From positions 1 through 37,507 of the forward strand of contig JACCQZ010000095.1 in NCBI GenBank assembly GCA_013813875.1: a DNA stretch of 37,507 nucleotides, given 5' to 3'. Shown here piece by piece: positions 4,654 through 35,141 of this stretch. The notes below the pieces were generated by a model. The model searched no databases. It was not told where the DNA came from and worked only from the letters and a program-made list of their open reading frames with translations. A program made the position numbers and the translations under genes. Numbering within the stretch: the stretch's first letter is position 1; the number at the start of each line of letters is the position of its first letter. This DNA is from Gemmatimonadales bacterium. GTDB taxonomy: Bacteria > Gemmatimonadota > Gemmatimonadetes > Gemmatimonadales > GWC2-71-9.

Positions 4654-5914
4654 TCACCCCCACCAATCACGCGCGCGGTAGTAGGCGCCGACCAGCGGAA
4701 GAAACCAGGGGGTGCCGCGGTATAGGGGAAAGGCTTCGAGCCGGCCGCCGAGATCGGGAACCGGTGTGCGTCCCGCCAACGCATCTCCCATCCGCTCGCC
4801 CAGCCACGAGGAAAGCGCCACTCCATGGCCGCAATAGCCGAGCGCGTAGTGGATTCCGTCCACCTGCCCCACGTGAGGCAGGTGATCCATCGTGAACGCG
4901 ACCTTTCCGGCCCAGGCGAACTCGACCGGCACGCCCGGCGAGCTCGGGAAAAACTCTGCACATGCCCGCGGTAAGGATCTCCGCGCTCCGCCTGGTGCTG
5001 GTGGGTGTGAAAGAAGCTCGGCCGCCAAACATCATGCGCCGGTCCGGCGACAACCGGAAATAGGAGAGCAGGTGCCTGGTGTCGCTGGCCACTCGCCCTC
5101 GCGGCAGGAGACGTTCGCTCAACGAGGGATCGAGAGGCGCGGTGGCGATCAGATAGCTTCCTATCGGCACCACGCCGCGCTGAAGCCGCCCGAACGCGGG
5201 GCCGGTATACCCGTTGGTGGCGACCAGCACCTCGGTAGCGCTGAGGGGGCCGCGCGCAGTGGTGAGATCGAACCGGCCGGCCTCCCGCCGTATCCCGTGC
5301 ACCTCAGCCCCTTCCAGCAGCTGAGCTCCGGCACCTTCGGCCGCGGCGGCAAGGCCGAGGCAGTAGCGCCCGGGATGAAGAGCTCCGCTGCCCGGGTCCA
5401 GCAGCGCGCCATGGTAGCGGGACGATCCGATCTCACCGGCGAGCTCGCCGGGTCGGAGCAGTGCGGTATGGTACGAAAGCTGGTCGCGCAGAAAGCGATG
5501 ACTTTGTTCGAGCCGGCGGAAGTGGGAGGGCTTGGCGGCGAGAGTAAGGGCACCGCAGCGGGAGTAGTCGCAATCAATTGGCTCGGCCGCTACCAGATTC
5601 TCGAGCTGCTCCACCGCTTGGAGTGAGATTTGGAAGAGGCGCCGAGCGACAGCCAACCCATACCGCCGCGCCAGTGATTCCACATCCGCTTGGTACCCTG
5701 GGAGAACGAAGCCGGCGTTTCGGCCGCTGGCTCCCCAGCCAATCGTGTGCCGCTCCAGCACCACGACGTCGGCCCCGTGCCGGGCAAGCACGCGGGCGGC
5801 GGCAAGGCCGGTGTAGCCTCCGCCAACTATCGCTACGTCCACCCGTTCCGACAGTGAGCCGGCCGCCGGCCGCAGCGGCTGGGCGTTCGGGGTCCAGAGG
5901 CAGCGCTCGATCAC
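4654..5914 (-). pseudogene. FAD-dependent amino acid/polyamine oxidase (DAO family, PuuB-like) with an apparent single-base frameshift
   Basis: N-terminal frame (ORF 4667..6025) has VDVAIVGGGYTGLAAARVLARHGADVVVLERHTIGWGASGRNAG...MCRVFPELAG; C-terminal family motifs VPVEFAWAGKVAFTMDHLPHVGQVDGIHYALGYCGHGVALSSWLGERMGDALAG lie in the adjacent frame (ORF 4654..5028); shift at about 4925-4945. Confidence 0.85.
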
Positions 5915-5936
5915 TGTGCCTCTGTGGTAAAGCTGT

Positions 5937-7289
5937 TCATTCGCGCTGAGCAACTTCTTCCAGCGCCTCACCCACCGCATCGAGCCCCTCGTCAATGAGG
6001 GCGTCGGGCGCGGTGAGAGGCGCAAGTATGCGGACCGTGTTGCCGCAGGTGCCGGCTGAGAGCAGGAGCACGCCGCGCTCGAGCGCCGCGGCCAGGAGGC
6101 GGCTGGTCAGCGCCTTGTCGGGCGAACGGGTCTCGCGGTCGGTGACGAGCTCCATGCCGACCATCGCGCCGAGTCCCCGGACATCGCCGATGCACGGATG
6201 TCGCTCCGCCCACGCGCGGAAGCGCGCCGTGATCCGATCGCCGGTGCGCTGGGCGCGCTGGGGGATACGCTCGGCCTCCATGGCATCGAGCACCGCGAGC
6301 GCGGCCGCGCAGGCAAGTGGGTTACCGCCGTACGTCCCACCGAGACCGCCCACCTGGGGAGCGTCGAGCACGTCGGCTCTGCCGGTCACCGCCGCAAGCG
6401 GCAGACCGCCCGCGAGGGACTTGGCCGTGGTGATGAGATCGGGCACCAGCCCGTAATGTTCGCACGCGAAGAGCTTCCCGGTCCGACCGAACCCGGTCTG
6501 GATCTCGTCGGCGATGAACAGGATACCGTGCTCCCGGGCGAACGCCGCCAACGCGCGCACGTAGTCCAGCGGCGCGGGCACGAATCCCCCCTCACCCAGC
6601 TCGAGCTCCATGATGATCGCCGCCACCGACCCCGGGTCCACCGTAGCCGCGAATATGCGCTCCAGGCGTTCGCGGCTCGCCATGCAGCACTGGCTCCGAC
6701 TCCGATCGCTCGGGCCCTCGGCGCAGCGGTAACAATAGGGAAACGGAATCCGATACACCTCCGGCGCGAAGGGGCCGAACCCCTTCTTGTAGGGCATCAC
6801 CTTGGAGGTGAGCGCCAGGGCGAGATTGGTCCGCCCGTGGAAGCCGTGTTCGAAGCAGACTACCGCCTGCCGGCCGGTAAAGAACCGGGCCGCTTTGACC
6901 GCGTTCTCCACCGCCTCGGCGCCGCTGTTCACCAGGAGCGTGCGCTTCTCGTGGCTGCCCGGTGTGAGCCGGTTGAGCCGTTCGGCGAGCTCGACGTAGG
7001 GCTCGTAGGTGGAAACCGGGAAACAGAGGTGGGTATAGCGGTCGAGTTGAGCCCGTACCGCGGCGACCACTGCCGGATGGCGGTGCCCGGTATTCACCAC
7101 TCCTATCCCGCCGGCGAAGTCAATCAGCCGGTTGCCGTCGGCATCGGTAAGAACAGCCCCCTCGGCATGGACCACGGCGATGGGGCTGACCGCAGGCACG
7201 CCCCGGGGGACCGCCCGTGCCCGGCGGGCCAGCAGGGCTCGGCTGTGGGGGCCGGGGATCTCGGTCCGGAGCTGAATGACGCCGGCCAT
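5937..7289 (-). CDS. gabT: 4-aminobutyrate-type class-III aminotransferase
   Basis: MAGVIQLRTEIPGPHSRALLARRARAVPRGVPAVSPIAVVHAEGAVLTDADGNRLIDFAGGIGVVNTGHRHPAV...; FIADEIQTGFGRTGKLFA; TTAKSLAGGLPLAAVTGRA. Confidence 0.9.
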   Translation of the reverse strand: MAGVIQLRTEIPGPHSRALLARRARAVPRGVPAVSPIAVVHAEGAVLTDADGNRLIDFAGGIGVVNTGHRHPAVVAAVRAQLDRYTHLCFPVSTYEPYVELAERLNRLTPGSHEKRTLLVNSGAEAVENAVKAARFFTGRQAVVCFEHGFHGRTNLALALTSKVMPYKKGFGPFAPEVYRIPFPYCYRCAEGPSDRSRSQCCMASRERLERIFAATVDPGSVAAIIMELELGEGGFVPAPLDYVRALAAFAREHGILFIADEIQTGFGRTGKLFACEHYGLVPDLITTAKSLAGGLPLAAVTGRADVLDAPQVGGLGGTYGGNPLACAAALAVLDAMEAERIPQRAQRTGDRITARFRAWAERHPCIGDVRGLGAMVGMELVTDRETRSPDKALTSRLLAAALERGVLLLSAGTCGNTVRILAPLTAPDALIDEGLDAVGEALEEVAQRE

Positions 7290-28872: not shown

Positions 28873-29030
28873 GGATGGGGCGGAGGCGGAAAAGGTTGGC
28901 TGGGTGGAGGTCGAAGGTCTCGGGTCTAAGGTCTTAGGTCCTGCAGCACCGAGCGTCCGAGCCTCAGACCTTCGACCTTCGACCTTCTACCTTCGACTCC
29001 CACCAGCCAACCCTTTCCCTCCCATCCGTG
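28873..29030. repeat. large imperfect inverted repeat carrying period-7 AGGTCNN tandem units in both arms
   Basis: Left aggtcga-aggtctc-gggtcta-aggtctt-aggtcct; right arm reverse complement gagtcga-aggtaga-aggtcga-aggtcga-aggtctg; outer arms aaaggttggctgggtgg / aaagggttggctggtggg. Confidence 0.8.
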
Positions 29031-29062
29031 TCTGATCCAGCGACCCTCATGCTCCGGAGCCC

Positions 29063-29596
29063 GTGAACGACCGCGAATTGATCGGCCGAGTGCTGGCAGG
29101 GGACCCGAGTGCTGAGCGCGCGCTGTATGACGCGCACGTTGACCGTGTGTTCCGGCTGGTCTACCGGATGGCCGGGGACCTCGACCGGGCGCAGGATTAC
29201 GTCCAGGAGACCTTCATCCGCGGCTTCGACCGCCTGGGGGATTTCAGAGGCGAGTCGGCGCTGTCAACCTGGCTCTGCTCGATCGCGATTTCGATCACTT
29301 TGAACGGGTTGCGCAAGGTCCGGAGGTTCAACGAGCGGGAAACGGAGCTGGACGATGGGTTGCAGGCGGGTTCGCCCGTCCGGGAGGCCGATCCCGACCT
29401 CAAGGTCCGGCTCTCCCGCGCCATCGAGGCGCTTCCCGAGGGCTATCGCACGGTGTTCGTGATGCACGACGTCGAGGGGTACACCCATCAGGAGATCGCG
29501 GACACCCTGGGCGTGCAGCCCGGAACTTCGAAGGCCCAGCTCTCCCGCGCCCGTGCCCGGCTGCGCGCGGCGCTCGCCGATTTTGCCAGGGACTGA
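29063..29596 (+). CDS. ECF RNA polymerase sigma factor
   Basis: GTG start; DRVFRLVYRMAGDLDRAQDYVQETFIRGFDRLGDFRGESALSTWLCSIAISITLNGLRK...LPEGYRTVFVMHDVEGYTHQEIADTLGVQPGTSKAQLSRARARLR. Confidence 0.95.
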   Translation: MNDRELIGRVLAGDPSAERALYDAHVDRVFRLVYRMAGDLDRAQDYVQETFIRGFDRLGDFRGESALSTWLCSIAISITLNGLRKVRRFNERETELDDGLQAGSPVREADPDLKVRLSRAIEALPEGYRTVFVMHDVEGYTHQEIADTLGVQPGTSKAQLSRARARLRAALADFARD

Positions 29597-29598
29597 AT

Positions 29599-30234
29599 AT
29601 GGACGATGACCGTTTGGACGATCCGATCCGCGATGCCGCTCGCCAATACAACGCACCGCCCGACACTCCGAAGGAGGAGATGTGGGCCCGGGTGCAGGCG
29701 AGTCGGCGGTTGGGCGCGCAGCGGGGCAAAGGCCGCAGGGTCGTTTCTCCCCGGTACTGGGTACCCTGGGCTGCCGCCGCGGCCGCCGTGCTCGCGGCGG
29801 GAATAGGGCTCGGCCGGCTCTCGGTTAGCCCGGAGACCGTTGTGCCCGAGGTGGCGGAGCGCCGAGCGCCGCAGGTGAACCCCACCGCCTACCGCCTCGC
29901 CACCATGGAGCACCTCGGCCAGTCGGAGGCTTTTCTCACCCTCTTCCGCACCTCGGTCGTGGCCGGCGGCAACGAGCGGCTGGCGTCGGCGTCGGCCCGG
30001 CAACTGTTGGCGACCAACCGGCTGCTGCTCGATTCACCGGCGGCGGAAGACCGCAGGGCTCGGCTGCTGCTCCAGGACCTCGAGCTGATCCTGGCCGAGA
30101 TCGCTCAACTCTCCCTGGAGTCGCGGGAACAGGATCTTCAGTTGATCAGAGAAGGGATCGAGCGGGGCGACATGATGCCTCGTCTCAGGACCGCCGTACC
30201 GGCGGGCCCGAACTCAATGCAAGGAGCGCTCTGA
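29599..30234 (+). CDS. single-TM protein, putative anti-sigma factor without an obvious zinc motif
   Basis: Short cytoplasmic N-terminus, TM YWVPWAAAAAAVLAAGIGLGRL, helical periplasmic part (LLDSPAAEDRRARLLLQDLELILAEIAQLSLESREQDLQLIREGIERGDMMPRLR); directly follows the ECF gene; no HxxxCxxC. Confidence 0.7.
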   Translation: MDDDRLDDPIRDAARQYNAPPDTPKEEMWARVQASRRLGAQRGKGRRVVSPRYWVPWAAAAAAVLAAGIGLGRLSVSPETVVPEVAERRAPQVNPTAYRLATMEHLGQSEAFLTLFRTSVVAGGNERLASASARQLLATNRLLLDSPAAEDRRARLLLQDLELILAEIAQLSLESREQDLQLIREGIERGDMMPRLRTAVPAGPNSMQGAL

Positions 30235-31670
30235 TGTTTCGCATACCGTTCGGATTGGCGCTGGCAGCGGTGGCCGGCCTCGGCGGCTGGTGGATGCCCC
30301 CTCCCGGCGAGCCACAGGACCGGACTCCTCCGGCTCCGTGGCTCCAGGGTGACCCGGCCGATTCGTTGTATCGCGCCGCCCGGGAGGCGCTGAACCGGCG
30401 TGAGTATCGCCGCTCCGCCGAGCTTTTTGCCGAATTGCCCAGCCGCTTTCCACGCTCGGGCTATGCGGCCGACGCGCTCTACTGGCGAGCCTTCGCGCTC
30501 TACCGCGTAGGGGGCGAGAGGCAGCTGCGGGAAGCGCTCCAGTCGCTGGAAACCCAGCGGGGACGCTTTCCCAAAGCGGCGACGAGAGGGGATGCAGCCG
30601 CACTCGAGCGCCGGATTCAGGGTGAGCTGGCCCGCCAGGGAGATCCCGACGCCGCCGCCGATGTGGCCCGAGCGGCGGCCGGAGTACTTCCCCCGGAGCC
30701 GCCGACGCCGCCCACTCCGCCTATTCCTCCTACTCCTCCTACTCCGCCCACGCCGCCGACTCCACCCACGCCCGGCAGCCACGCGAGGGAGTGCGCGGAC
30801 GACGAGAACGACACCAAGGTGGCGGCCCTCAACGCCTTGATCCACATGGACGACGAACGGGCCCGTCCCATACTTCGCCGGGTGCTTGCCCGGCGGGATG
30901 CGGCGACAGCCTGCCTCCGGCGGAAAGCCGTCTTCCTGGTTGCGCAGGGCGGAGGTGAAGGGGTCGAGGACATCCTGTTGGATGCCGCACGCAGCGACCC
31001 GGACGCCGAGGTGCGGGAGCAGGCCGTCTTCTGGCTCTCACAGGTCGGAAGCGAGCGGGCGGTCAGCGCGCTCGACTCGATCCTGAGGACCTCCAAGGAC
31101 CGCGGCGTGCAGGAGAAGGCGGTGTTTGCCCTGTCGCAGCACGACAGCCCTCGCGCGCGACAGGCGCTGCGAACCTACGCCGAGCGGTCCGAGTTGCCGG
31201 ACGACATCCGGGAGAAAGCGATCTTCTGGATCGGCCAGAGCGAGGGGCGGGAGAATGCGGCGTTCCTGCGCGCGCTGTACGGAAAGCTCGAGAGCGAGGA
31301 GTTGCGGAAGAAGGTGCTCTTCTCGCTTTCCCAGATGGGAGGCGAGGAGAACCAGCGCTGGCTCCTGCAGATCGTGCGGGACAAGGCCCAGCCGGTCGAG
31401 CTGCGCAAGCAGGCATTGTTCTGGGCGGGACAGAGCGGCGCCTCCATGGCCGACCTCGGAGCGCTGTACGGTACCCTCCTCGACCGCGAGATGCGCGAGC
31501 AGCTGATCTTCGTTTACTCCCAGCGCGACGAGCCCGCGGCTGTTGACCGGCTGCTCGACATCGCGCGGCGCGACCCCGACACCGAGCTTCGCAAGAAGGC
31601 GCTCTTCTGGTTGGGCCAGAGCGACGATCCGCGCGCGGCCAAGGCCCTTCAGGACATCATCGAGCAGTGA
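30234..31670 (+). CDS. exported TPR-like / Pro-Thr linker / HEAT-repeat protein
   Basis: Hydrophobic N-terminus; YRRSAELFAELPSRFPRSGYAADALYWRAFALYRVGG; (PPT)n linker; eight HEAT units with motif E[VIL]R[KE][KQ]A[VIL]F[WASV]x[GS]Q. Confidence 0.88.
   Translation: MFRIPFGLALAAVAGLGGWWMPPPGEPQDRTPPAPWLQGDPADSLYRAAREALNRREYRRSAELFAELPSRFPRSGYAADALYWRAFALYRVGGERQLREALQSLETQRGRFPKAATRGDAAALERRIQGELARQGDPDAAADVARAAAGVLPPEPPTPPTPPIPPTPPTPPTPPTPPTPGSHARECADDENDTKVAALNALIHMDDERARPILRRVLARRDAATACLRRKAVFLVAQGGGEGVEDILLDAARSDPDAEVREQAVFWLSQVGSERAVSALDSILRTSKDRGVQEKAVFALSQHDSPRARQALRTYAERSELPDDIREKAIFWIGQSEGRENAAFLRALYGKLESEELRKKVLFSLSQMGGEENQRWLLQIVRDKAQPVELRKQALFWAGQSGASMADLGALYGTLLDREMREQLIFVYSQRDEPAAVDRLLDIARRDPDTELRKKALFWLGQSDDPRAAKALQDIIEQ
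30690..30773 (+). repeat. in-frame Pro-Pro-Thr tandem repeat (nine PPx triplets)
   Basis: PPE PPT PPT PPI PPT PPT PPT PPT PPT encoded by near-9-nt DNA units. Confidence 0.9.
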
Positions 31671-31677
31671 GGATTTC

Positions 31678-32430
31678 ATGACGATTATCCGAAGAGTGGC
31701 CGCCGTGAGTCTGCTCCTGCTTCCGGAGGCGCTCGGCGCCCAGGCCTTGGCCCGGCGAGTGGAGGCCGCGGGAGATGGCACGGTACGGATGAGCTTCGCG
31801 GCGCGCGAAGGGGTCTGCGGCAGCGGCAGCGGCAGCATCACCATCCATGACGGCCACGACGACGACTGGGTGGCCAACTGCGATCGGGGACCGGTACGAG
31901 TGTCGCTCACTCTGCGGCAGGGGCGGGTGACAGAGGCTCACTCCTATGTGGGGGGCCGTTGGCGCCAGGGAAGCGGCAGGGTGAACGACCTGGGATCAGT
32001 GCCGGCGCGCGAGGCGTCCGCGTACCTCCTCACACTCGCGCCGCGCGCCGGGGAGGATGGCGGCGAGCTCATCACCGCGGCAACGCTCGCGGACAGCGCT
32101 ACGGTCTGGCCCTCCCTTCTCCGCATTGCCCGGGAGGAGGGCGTTAGCCTCGAGACCCGTCGCCAGGCAGTCTTCTGGCTGGGACAGGCCGCGGGCAAGG
32201 CGGCGGCGCGGGGGCTCGACTCGATTGCCGTGGACGATAGCGGGGATATCGAGGTGCGGAAGCAGGCGGTCTTCGCGCTCTCTCAGCGGCCTGAGGAAGA
32301 AGGCGTGCCGGTGCTCATCCACATCGCCCGAAGCAACCCCCATCCCGAGATCCGCAAGTCCGCTCTCTTCTGGCTGGGTCAGAGCGAAGATCCACGGGCG
32401 CTCGCCCTGTTCGAGGAGCTGCTGCAGTAA
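31678..32430 (+). CDS. exported HEAT-repeat protein, shorter companion of the preceding gene
   Basis: Signal peptide MTIIRRVAAVSLLLLPEALGAQA; C-terminal RRQAVFWLGQ, RKQAVFALSQ, RKSALFWLGQS units; 7-bp spacing from the previous stop. Confidence 0.88.
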   Translation: MTIIRRVAAVSLLLLPEALGAQALARRVEAAGDGTVRMSFAAREGVCGSGSGSITIHDGHDDDWVANCDRGPVRVSLTLRQGRVTEAHSYVGGRWRQGSGRVNDLGSVPAREASAYLLTLAPRAGEDGGELITAATLADSATVWPSLLRIAREEGVSLETRRQAVFWLGQAAGKAAARGLDSIAVDDSGDIEVRKQAVFALSQRPEEEGVPVLIHIARSNPHPEIRKSALFWLGQSEDPRALALFEELLQ

Positions 32431-32480
32431 ACCCTTTGGTGGCTTCCCCTGTCTAATCCGCGCACTCAACAGGGGAAGTC

Positions 32481-35141
32481 ATGATCGTCGCCCAGCTCTG
32501 CCTCACGGTTCTCGCGGTGTCACCCGCCGTTCAAGCCAATTCGCAGGACTCGCTCGCCAGCGCCGTCACTCGCGCGCCGGCAGTCCGGGCAACGCGCCTG
32601 GCCGGACAGCTCACGGTGGATGGGATCCCGTCTGAAGCTGCCTGGCAGACGGCGGGGCCGGTGACCGACTTCATCCAGCTCTTGCCATACGAGGGGACGG
32701 CCGCCACCGAGCGCACCGAAGTGCGCGTGCTCTACGACGACGACGCGCTGTACATCGGGGCCCGGCTCTACGACCGGGCGCCGGACTCGGTGGCCTCGCA
32801 ACTGGCCCGGCGGGATCGCGTCGCGCGGTCGGACCGCTTCATCGTTTACCTCGATTCCTATCATGACGGGCGCACCGGCTTTTTCTTCGGCGTCAACGCC
32901 GCGGGCACGCTCTACGACGGCACTCTCTACAATGACGAATGGGACGACGACACCTGGGACGGAGTGTGGGATGGTTCGGCGGTGCGGGATTCCCTCGGTT
33001 GGAGCACGGAGCTGAGGATCCCCTACTCCCAGCTTCGCTTCCAGAAGGGCGGCGACTATCGCTGGGGAATCAACTTCGCCCGCGAGATCGCCCGCCGCAA
33101 CGAACGCGACTACCTGGTCTACCGGCCCAGCAACGGCAGCGGGTTCGTGTCCCGCTTTGTCGCACTGGAAGGCATGCAGGATGTGACCCCGCCTCCACGG
33201 CTGGAGTTGCTGCCCTACTTCACCACCCGGGCGGAGTTTCTCGGTCATGAGGCGGCGGACCCATTCAACGATGGCTCCCGGTATGCCGCGGGCGCGGGTG
33301 CAGACCTCAAGCTGGGGCTGGGAGCGAACCTGACGCTGGCGGCCACCGTCAATCCCGACTTCGGCCAGGTGGAGGTGGACCCCGCGGTGGTCAACCTGAG
33401 CGACGTCGAGACCTTCTTCGAGGAGCGCCGGCCCTTCTTCATCGAGGGGGCGAGCATCTTCGAATTCGGCTACGGCGGAGCCAACGATTTCTGGGGATTC
33501 AACTGGGCCAACCCCACCTTCCTCTACACCCGACGGATCGGACGCGCGCCGCAGGCGGAAGAACCGGACGCGGACTACACCGAGGTGCCCGCCGGCACCA
33601 ACATCATCGGGGCGGCCAAGCTCTCCGGAAAGGTCGGCTCGTGGAGCTTGGGCGCGCTCAACGCGGTCACCAGCCGGGAACACGGGAGCTTCGCGCTCGG
33701 CGACCGGCAATGGCGAGAGGAGCTGGAGCCGCCGGCGTACTATGGGGTCTATCGCGCACAGAAGGAGTTTGACGGAGGAACCCGGGGGCTTGGGGCTATC
33801 GCCACCACGACGGCCCGAGCCTTCGACTCGGAGCCGCTGCGAGACCAGTTGAGCTCTACCGCGTTTACGCTCGGGGTGGACGGCTGGACCTCGCTCGACC
33901 GCGACCGGGTCTGGGTAGTGACCGGGTGGGCTGGAGCCAGCCGGGTGGCGGGAAGCCGCGAACGACTTCAACGGCTGCAGGAAGGCTCGGTGCACTACTT
34001 CCAGCGGCCTGACGCCGGCTACCTGGGCGTGGACTCCAGCGCCACCTCGCTGGCCGGATTTGCGGGACGGGTGACGCTCAACAAGCAGAAGGGCGACTGG
34101 ATGTTCAACTCCGCCCTCGGCCTGGTGGATCCCCGCTACGAGGTGAACGACCTCGGCTTCCAGAGCCGCGGCGATCAACTCAACGGCAGCGTCGTGGTGG
34201 GCCGCCGCTGGACCAAGCCGAGCCGCCACTTCAGGAGCTTCCGACTCAACCTCGCCACCTTTCGAACCTACAACTTTGGCGGTGATCTTACCTGGGACGG
34301 CTACTTTCTCACCGGTGTGTACCAGCTCAACAACTTCTACGACGGGCGCTGGTTCGTGGCCTATAATCCCCCGTCGTTCAGCGACCGGCAGAGCCGGGGC
34401 GGGCCGCTGATGCTGAATCCACCCGGAGTCGAATGGGATTTTCAACTGACATCCGACGCCAACCGGCGCTGGATCGTGGGGTTGGCGCTGCACGGCCTCG
34501 ACTATAGCCGCGGAGCCGACCAGAGCTGGAGCATCCGGCCCAGCCTGGCGTGGAAGCCGGGCGGCCGCTTCTCGCTCGAGCTGGTGCCCGAGCTGCAGCG
34601 GAGCAGGACCGCGGCGCAGTACGTGGACACGTTCGACGATCCACTCGCCACCGGCACTTTCGGGCACCGCTACGTGTTCGCGGAGCTGGATCAGACCACG
34701 CTGTCGGCCAGCCTCCGGCTGGACTGGACCTTCACTCCGAAGCTGAGCCTGGAGCTCTATGCCCAGCCGCTGCTCTCCTCCGGCCGGTATGCCGGCTTCA
34801 AGGAGCTGGCGCGGGCTCGAAGTTACGCGTTCAATGCGTATCCCGATCCGACTCCGACCGAGGACCCGGACCGCATCGTGGTAGATCCCGACGGCCCGGC
34901 TGGGCCGGCCCCGGCCGAAGAGACAGACGACCCCAACTTCTCGCTCGCCTCGCTGCGGGGGAATGCGGTGCTCAGGTGGGAGTATTCGCCGGGATCCACC
35001 TTCTTTGTGGTGTGGACCCAGAATCGCTCCGACACCGAAACGATCGGCGGATTCGACACCGGCCGCGGGCTGAGCCGGCTGGGGCGGGCGGCGGGGGATA
35101 ACATTTTTCTGGTGAAGGTGGCGTATTGGTGGAATCCGTAA
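32481..35141 (+). CDS. DUF5916 family outer-membrane protein with CBM9-like N-terminal domain
   Basis: TVDGIPSEAAWQTAGPVTDFIQLLPYEGTAATERTEVRVLYDDDALYIGARLYD...DRFIVYLDSYHDGRTGFFFGVNAAGTLYDGTLYNDEWDDDTWDGVWDGSA...; C-terminal beta-barrel alternation. Confidence 0.9.
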   Translation: MIVAQLCLTVLAVSPAVQANSQDSLASAVTRAPAVRATRLAGQLTVDGIPSEAAWQTAGPVTDFIQLLPYEGTAATERTEVRVLYDDDALYIGARLYDRAPDSVASQLARRDRVARSDRFIVYLDSYHDGRTGFFFGVNAAGTLYDGTLYNDEWDDDTWDGVWDGSAVRDSLGWSTELRIPYSQLRFQKGGDYRWGINFAREIARRNERDYLVYRPSNGSGFVSRFVALEGMQDVTPPPRLELLPYFTTRAEFLGHEAADPFNDGSRYAAGAGADLKLGLGANLTLAATVNPDFGQVEVDPAVVNLSDVETFFEERRPFFIEGASIFEFGYGGANDFWGFNWANPTFLYTRRIGRAPQAEEPDADYTEVPAGTNIIGAAKLSGKVGSWSLGALNAVTSREHGSFALGDRQWREELEPPAYYGVYRAQKEFDGGTRGLGAIATTTARAFDSEPLRDQLSSTAFTLGVDGWTSLDRDRVWVVTGWAGASRVAGSRERLQRLQEGSVHYFQRPDAGYLGVDSSATSLAGFAGRVTLNKQKGDWMFNSALGLVDPRYEVNDLGFQSRGDQLNGSVVVGRRWTKPSRHFRSFRLNLATFRTYNFGGDLTWDGYFLTGVYQLNNFYDGRWFVAYNPPSFSDRQSRGGPLMLNPPGVEWDFQLTSDANRRWIVGLALHGLDYSRGADQSWSIRPSLAWKPGGRFSLELVPELQRSRTAAQYVDTFDDPLATGTFGHRYVFAELDQTTLSASLRLDWTFTPKLSLELYAQPLLSSGRYAGFKELARARSYAFNAYPDPTPTEDPDRIVVDPDGPAGPAPAEETDDPNFSLASLRGNAVLRWEYSPGSTFFVVWTQNRSDTETIGGFDTGRGLSRLGRAAGDNIFLVKVAYWWNP

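Follow-up and report, generated by a model that had tools for sequence, protein, structure and literature searches.

The HEAT repeats of two neighbouring bacterial proteins, here named H1 and H2, alternate between two signatures, and we could confirm that this two-repeat period is real and conserved across several phyla. Both proteins are solenoids of the HEAT_PBS kind whose repeats carry an unusual signature that is conserved; they are encoded within a window of 37,507 nucleotides, the whole stretch of DNA analysed here, from a Gemmatimonadales bacterium; the genes, signatures and promoter sites located below lie on its plus strand.

Written in six letters, units 2 to 9 of H1 read FLVAQG, FWLSQV, FALSQH, FWIGQS, FSLSQM, FWAGQS, FVYSQR and FWLGQS. 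The five-letter signature running from Phe to Gln is located at 30933..30947 in unit 2 (FLVAQ), in the Trp phase at 31029..31043 (unit 3, FWLSQ), 31224..31238 (unit 5, FWIGQ), 31419..31433 (unit 7, FWAGQ) and 31605..31619 (the C-terminal unit 9, FWLGQ), and in the small phase at 31125..31139 (unit 4, FALSQ), 31320..31334 (unit 6, FSLSQ) and 31509..31523 (unit 8, FVYSQ). H2 reads FWLGQA, FALSQR and FWLGQS, with its Trp-phase signatures (FWLGQ) at 32173..32187 and 32368..32382, in both of which F and W are invariant in 44/44, and its small-phase signature (FALSQ) at 32272..32286. Over the eight motif units of H1, the residue following the invariant Phe is hence L, W, A, W, S, W, V, W, and in H2 it is W, A, W. 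In the window alone, the probability that four Trp among eight units in order alternate perfectly by chance is 2/70 = 0.03, and the significance of the alternation therefore comes from the homologues.

The homologue set comprised 80 loci with 71 non-divergent rows, 65 of them complete arrays from Gemmatimonadota, Acidobacteriota/Aminicenantes, Rhodothermia and Calditrichota. The exact phase of the window is kept in 56 of the 65 complete arrays and the opposite phase is found in none, so that the motif strings and their alternation, first written down from the window alone, are borne out. Homologues lacking the alternation had been named as the observation that would speak against it; instead it is kept across phyla, including Aminicenantes/Acidobacteriota (L070, L071, L074, L075), Rhodothermia (L079) and Calditrichota (L081). 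Counting W/nonW by G/nonG over all units yields 192:71 vs 18:273; as the rows are related to each other, a P-value for this association should not be read at face value. The first-pass annotation had called the opposition of W..G and small..S strict, and here it went too far, since unit 3 is W..S (47 S and 19 G in the homologues).

To place the signature on a known scaffold, the HEAT units were aligned to alphaRep by phmmer. Phe falls on alphaRep position 26 and Gln on position 30, both of which belong to the variable positions randomised for target contact (18, 19, 22, 23, 26 and 30; PMC3754942), while the Trp/small residue falls on position 27 and Gly/Ser on position 29, which both belong to the framework, position 27 being Ala in alphaRep. 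No alternation is seen for Phe and Gln, each of which occurs in some 90% or more of the units of either phase (96/92 % for F, 93/89 % for Q). The residues that alternate are instead those at position 27 (W 96% vs A/S/V) and position 29 (G 73% vs S 81%); a weaker alternation is present at position 24 (A 98% in Trp units vs A/V/I/L in small units) and position 21 (R 93% vs K/R/Q). H1 and H2 share with alphaRep and its natural HEAT_PBS and HEAT_2 parents the repeat in register and the helical solenoid, and among PDB entries these come closest to them in both sequence and fold. However, in alphaRep and ordinary HEAT_PBS proteins positions 26 and 30 vary and Ala27 and Gly29 recur in every unit, whereas H1 and H2 have Phe and Gln almost invariably at positions 26 and 30 and switch between W,G and small,S at positions 27 and 29. 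The periodic surface of Trp and Gln proposed earlier is thus partly supported: the alphaRep register does point to a periodic face, but the contact surface, if any, would consist of Phe and Gln with one rung per repeat, present in every unit, and Trp at framework position 27 would add a two-repeat modulation beside it. Since alphaRep has a framework Ala at position 27, Trp is more likely to pack at the seam between repeats or next to it.

In other HEAT proteins of the same class, Trp at position 27 was found in 0 of about 58 units, the only such units in this control pool being those of H2 homologues, which were set aside. Two other HEAT proteins of Gemmatimonadota (L191, L204) repeat WALGEI over five to seven consecutive units, with Trp at position 26 and Glu at position 30, an acidic counterpart of the Phe/Gln pattern. 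Within the divergent Gemmatimonadaceae clade (Gemmatimonas-type; L056, L057, L058, L060, L063, L065, L067, L068, L078) the pattern is gone after unit 3–4. This clade retains sigma factor, anti-sigma factor and H1, and in most cases H2, despite the loss of the Phe/Trp/Gln signature, and a full ladder of Phe and Gln is therefore not essential to the module everywhere.

H1 (30234..31670) consists of an N-terminal hydrophobic/signal segment, a TPR-like region (30345..30599), a Pro-rich linker of PPTPP repeats (30690..30776), predicted to be disordered from its sequence and an AF2 pLDDT below 50 at model residues 136–147, and nine HEAT_PBS-type units (30807..31667) detected by Pfam (HEAT_2, 7e-25) and a unit scan. 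The TPR-like region resembles YbgF (CpoB) and BamD, with a match to NCBIfam TIGR02795 (9.8e-12, below the family cut-off) and to BamD structures in the PDB. It does not reach the curated cut-offs of YbgF/CpoB and BamD (45.5 of 90.1 and 32.4 of 81.4 bits), and H1 further differs from these TPR proteins in that linker and HEAT array follow. H2 (31678..32430) combines a signal-like segment, a beta-rich N-terminal domain with conserved cysteines and a short C-terminal array of HEAT units. For both proteins the HEAT_2 score exceeds the curated Pfam cut-off of 27.7 bits, with 87.6 bits for H1 and 40.4 bits for H2. The AF2 model of H1 is all-helical (pLDDT 92.6, pTM 0.82), while that of H2 (pLDDT 92.0, pTM 0.85) shows strands at mature residues 13–86 followed by helices. 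With the H1 model, Foldseek returned alphaRep as best PDB matches (E 1.7e-07), in keeping with a solenoid of tandem helix pairs, and additionally retrieved importin-alpha at a TM of about 0.3. No ARM repeat family was among the Pfam matches, and no RseB/MucB domain was detected in H1 or H2 with Pfam or NCBIfam. We infer that both proteins are exported to the periplasm.

The two genes follow an ECF sigma factor and its probable membrane anti-sigma factor, and the gene order is sigma, anti-sigma, H1, H2 and DUF5916. The sigma factor (29063..29596; Pfam Sigma70_r2 1.6e-13, Sigma70_r4_2 1.3e-18) contains regions 2 and 4 only and adjoins its cognate anti-sigma factor, as in ECF sigma/membrane anti-sigma pairs. 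The product of 29599..30234 is taken as the anti-sigma factor from its position, one hydrophobic segment, a weak NCBIfam antisigma match and its homologues, and its stop overlaps the start of H1 at position 30234. A zf-HC2 domain gave no Pfam match in the copy of the window; in homologues of other phyla it is clear in L070 and L077 and sub-threshold in L079 and L080. The C-terminal, helical and periplasmic part of the protein carries a conserved LL.TRLLLDSP..D...LL.DLEL.L.QI.QL, and the helical region around LL.DLEL.L.QI.QL is common to all anti-sigma homologues examined. Downstream of H2 lies a gene for a protein with a CBM9-like part and DUF5916 (32481..35141; Pfam DUF5916 2.6e-49).

The order of sigma, anti-sigma, H1 (TPR-like plus HEAT) and H2 (beta domain plus HEAT) is kept in nearly all loci over several phyla, and the H1 profile has matches in 90 of 150 sampled Gemmatimonadota genomes. 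A third HEAT protein, apparently a duplicate of H1 or H2, is present in the operon at four loci (L028, L030, L040, L061), and in the Calditrichaceae locus L081 a small unrelated ORF (5736–6155), DUF559-like by eye, is inserted between H1 and H2. Neither the module nor a two-repeat HEAT period was found described in open-licence texts, which is not proof of absence, and the module thus appears to be both conserved and uncharacterised.

Upstream of the sigma gene, we identified an ECF-type operon promoter at 29009..29032, AACCCTTT-N10-CGTGTC or equivalently AACC.TT-N14-GTC, from a motif enriched at this position. By strict regular expression, AACC.TT-N14-GTC precedes sigma in 25 of 64 homologous loci with 0 matches elsewhere in 1.5 Mb. 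The canonical GGAAC-N15-17-CGT ECF promoter was found upstream of sigma in none of 67 loci, the motif being a different one. Further upstream, 28905–29000 contains copies of GGTCGAAGGTC / GACCTTCGACCTT arranged as short repeats, both inverted and direct. The source genome contains only two sites with at most one mismatch to the 24-base pattern, the one at 29009, which is its only perfect match, and the one at 32430 (32430..32453), 27 nt before the DUF5916 gene. As other ECF sigma factors may share its -35 AAC element, the motif is likely, though not certainly, that of this sigma factor.

Looking at DUF5916 genes of at least 52% identity, namely the gene of the window, seven orthologues from other genera that share 55–65% identity, and one sharing 52%, AACC.TT-N14-[AG]TC lies within 150 bp upstream of 9/9 (expected 0.004 each). 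The [AG] was admitted once these sequences were known; the sigma-derived GTC form alone matches 6/9. Below 50% identity, the extended motif precedes 2 of 21 DUF5916 genes. A further DUF5916 gene in G179 also has the motif upstream. General adjacency of DUF5916 to the operon did not hold (3/60 loci upstream, 0/62 downstream); since this linkage is occasional, it is the promoter and not adjacency that carries the argument for a target. The DUF5916 gene is accordingly a likely target of the sigma factor, its product a predicted outer-membrane protein, and the presence of the motif before the window gene and its homologues in other genera suggests a small conserved regulon.

Overall, the evidence agrees best with a sigma system for envelope signalling to which two exported HEAT proteins are accessory. 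We propose that H1 and H2 are HEAT solenoids that would be exported and assist a conserved ECF sigma/membrane anti-sigma module; Phe26 and Gln30 of every unit would lie on the target-contact face of the groove helix and form a continuous Phe/Gln ladder. The Gln side chains may hydrogen-bond the backbone of an extended polypeptide while the Phe rings hold its side chains, in analogy to the WxxxN motif of importin-alpha, where Asn contacts the backbone on the concave side and aromatic and amide together hold an extended peptide (PMC3885797, PMC4756613). Importin-alpha and designed armadillo repeats also place an aromatic and an amide at i and i+4 on the groove helix with one rung per repeat; unlike H1 and H2, they are eukaryotic three-helix ARM repeats with Trp/Asn rather than Phe/Gln. 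At the low Foldseek TM, the likeness is one of register and chemistry, and we claim no sequence homology. The alternation at positions 27 and 29 would be of old origin and kept by selection, serving the packing or the register of an array whose length is fixed. By this analogy, H1 and H2 may bind an extended polypeptide, most likely either the conserved domain that the anti-sigma factor would place in the periplasm or an outer-membrane protein in unfolded form; ladder occupancy would then control release of sigma, which in turn would transcribe its own operon and the DUF5916 gene. The closest parallel for such a presumed effect on sigma is RseB–RseA of the sigma-E envelope stress response, where an exported protein is likewise encoded beside an ECF sigma factor and a membrane anti-sigma factor. 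The site of action of H1 and H2, like that of RseB, would be the anti-sigma factor's periplasmic part, but they contain no RseB-type domain and have an entirely different fold.

Taken as a whole, this explanation, from ladder and ligand to sigma control and DUF5916 output, is held tentatively and stands somewhat short of an even chance. Its most far-reaching form we regard as distinctly improbable: an undescribed ECF module crossing phyla whose two exported HEAT solenoids would recognise an extended polypeptide through a Phe/Gln ladder analogous to WxxxN and report it to the anti-sigma factor, each repeat pair being given its register by the Trp alternation and the output consisting of DUF5916 outer-membrane proteins. 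H1 and H2 could also be envelope-assembly or maintenance factors, products of the sigma regulon rather than regulators of sigma, which we consider a possible reading, though one we would not favour. The YbgF/BamD-like TPR region of H1 and the sigma promoter before the whole operon and the predicted outer-membrane DUF5916 gene fit well with such a role; however, the tight co-occurrence and order with sigma and anti-sigma in many phyla is typical of regulators, and both roles are compatible.

A purely structural origin of the signature, in which Trp27 fills an inter-repeat cavity in every second repeat and sets the curvature of the superhelix, with no ligand at the ladder, appears rather unlikely. 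It agrees with the framework role of position 27 in alphaRep and with position 24 on the same flank of the helix, where size is exchanged between near-uniform Ala in Trp units and A/V/I/L in small ones, yet it leaves the invariant Phe26 and Gln30 at normally variable, exposed positions unexplained, and the ordinary HEAT proteins of this class manage without Trp27 alternation.

The first-pass annotation had further taken the alternation as a fossil of array growth by duplication of two-repeat units. We therefore compared units of same and opposite phase with positions 27 and 29 masked. For Gemmatimonadota, masked similarity was 1.21 within and 1.24 between phases, the true split ranking 28 of 35. 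The values for the protein of the window are 1.14 vs 1.29, so that opposite-phase units are the more alike ones. Each complete H1 array parsed (Gemmatimonadota, Acidobacteriota/Aminicenantes, Rhodothermia) contains nine units. Whole-unit pairing was likewise not seen in most Acidobacteriota arrays under the same masking. Only H1 of L079 (0.61, 0.008 of splits) and the second protein of L080 (0.37, 0.029 of splits) showed it. One-to-one orthology of units across phyla could not be established, with a weak diagonal only from units too short to resolve it, and the best cross-phylum matches are dominated by the C-terminal unit. The proposed self-comparison of repeats consequently gave a divided answer, with pairing in these two proteins and none in the window or the Gemmatimonadota arrays. 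As masked same-phase units are no more alike, and the number of units is constant across phyla, expansion by pair duplication is unsupported in the lineage of the window and, despite the two paired arrays, we judge it improbable as the origin of the alternation. The simplest reading looks to be an old array of fixed length under selection at few positions, not recent copying of pairs; a very old pair duplication is possible.

Selection can thus maintain an alternation of repeat signatures even where no trace of repeat-pair duplication is visible. With the sigma factor, the anti-sigma factor, two HEAT proteins and a DUF5916 target gene, a concrete set of partners is at hand for experiments on an apparently uncharacterised envelope-signalling module, which is found in more than half of the sampled Gemmatimonadota genomes. 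Being natural and nearly invariant at the contact residues, its HEAT array could show how a bacterial HEAT groove binds extended polypeptides.
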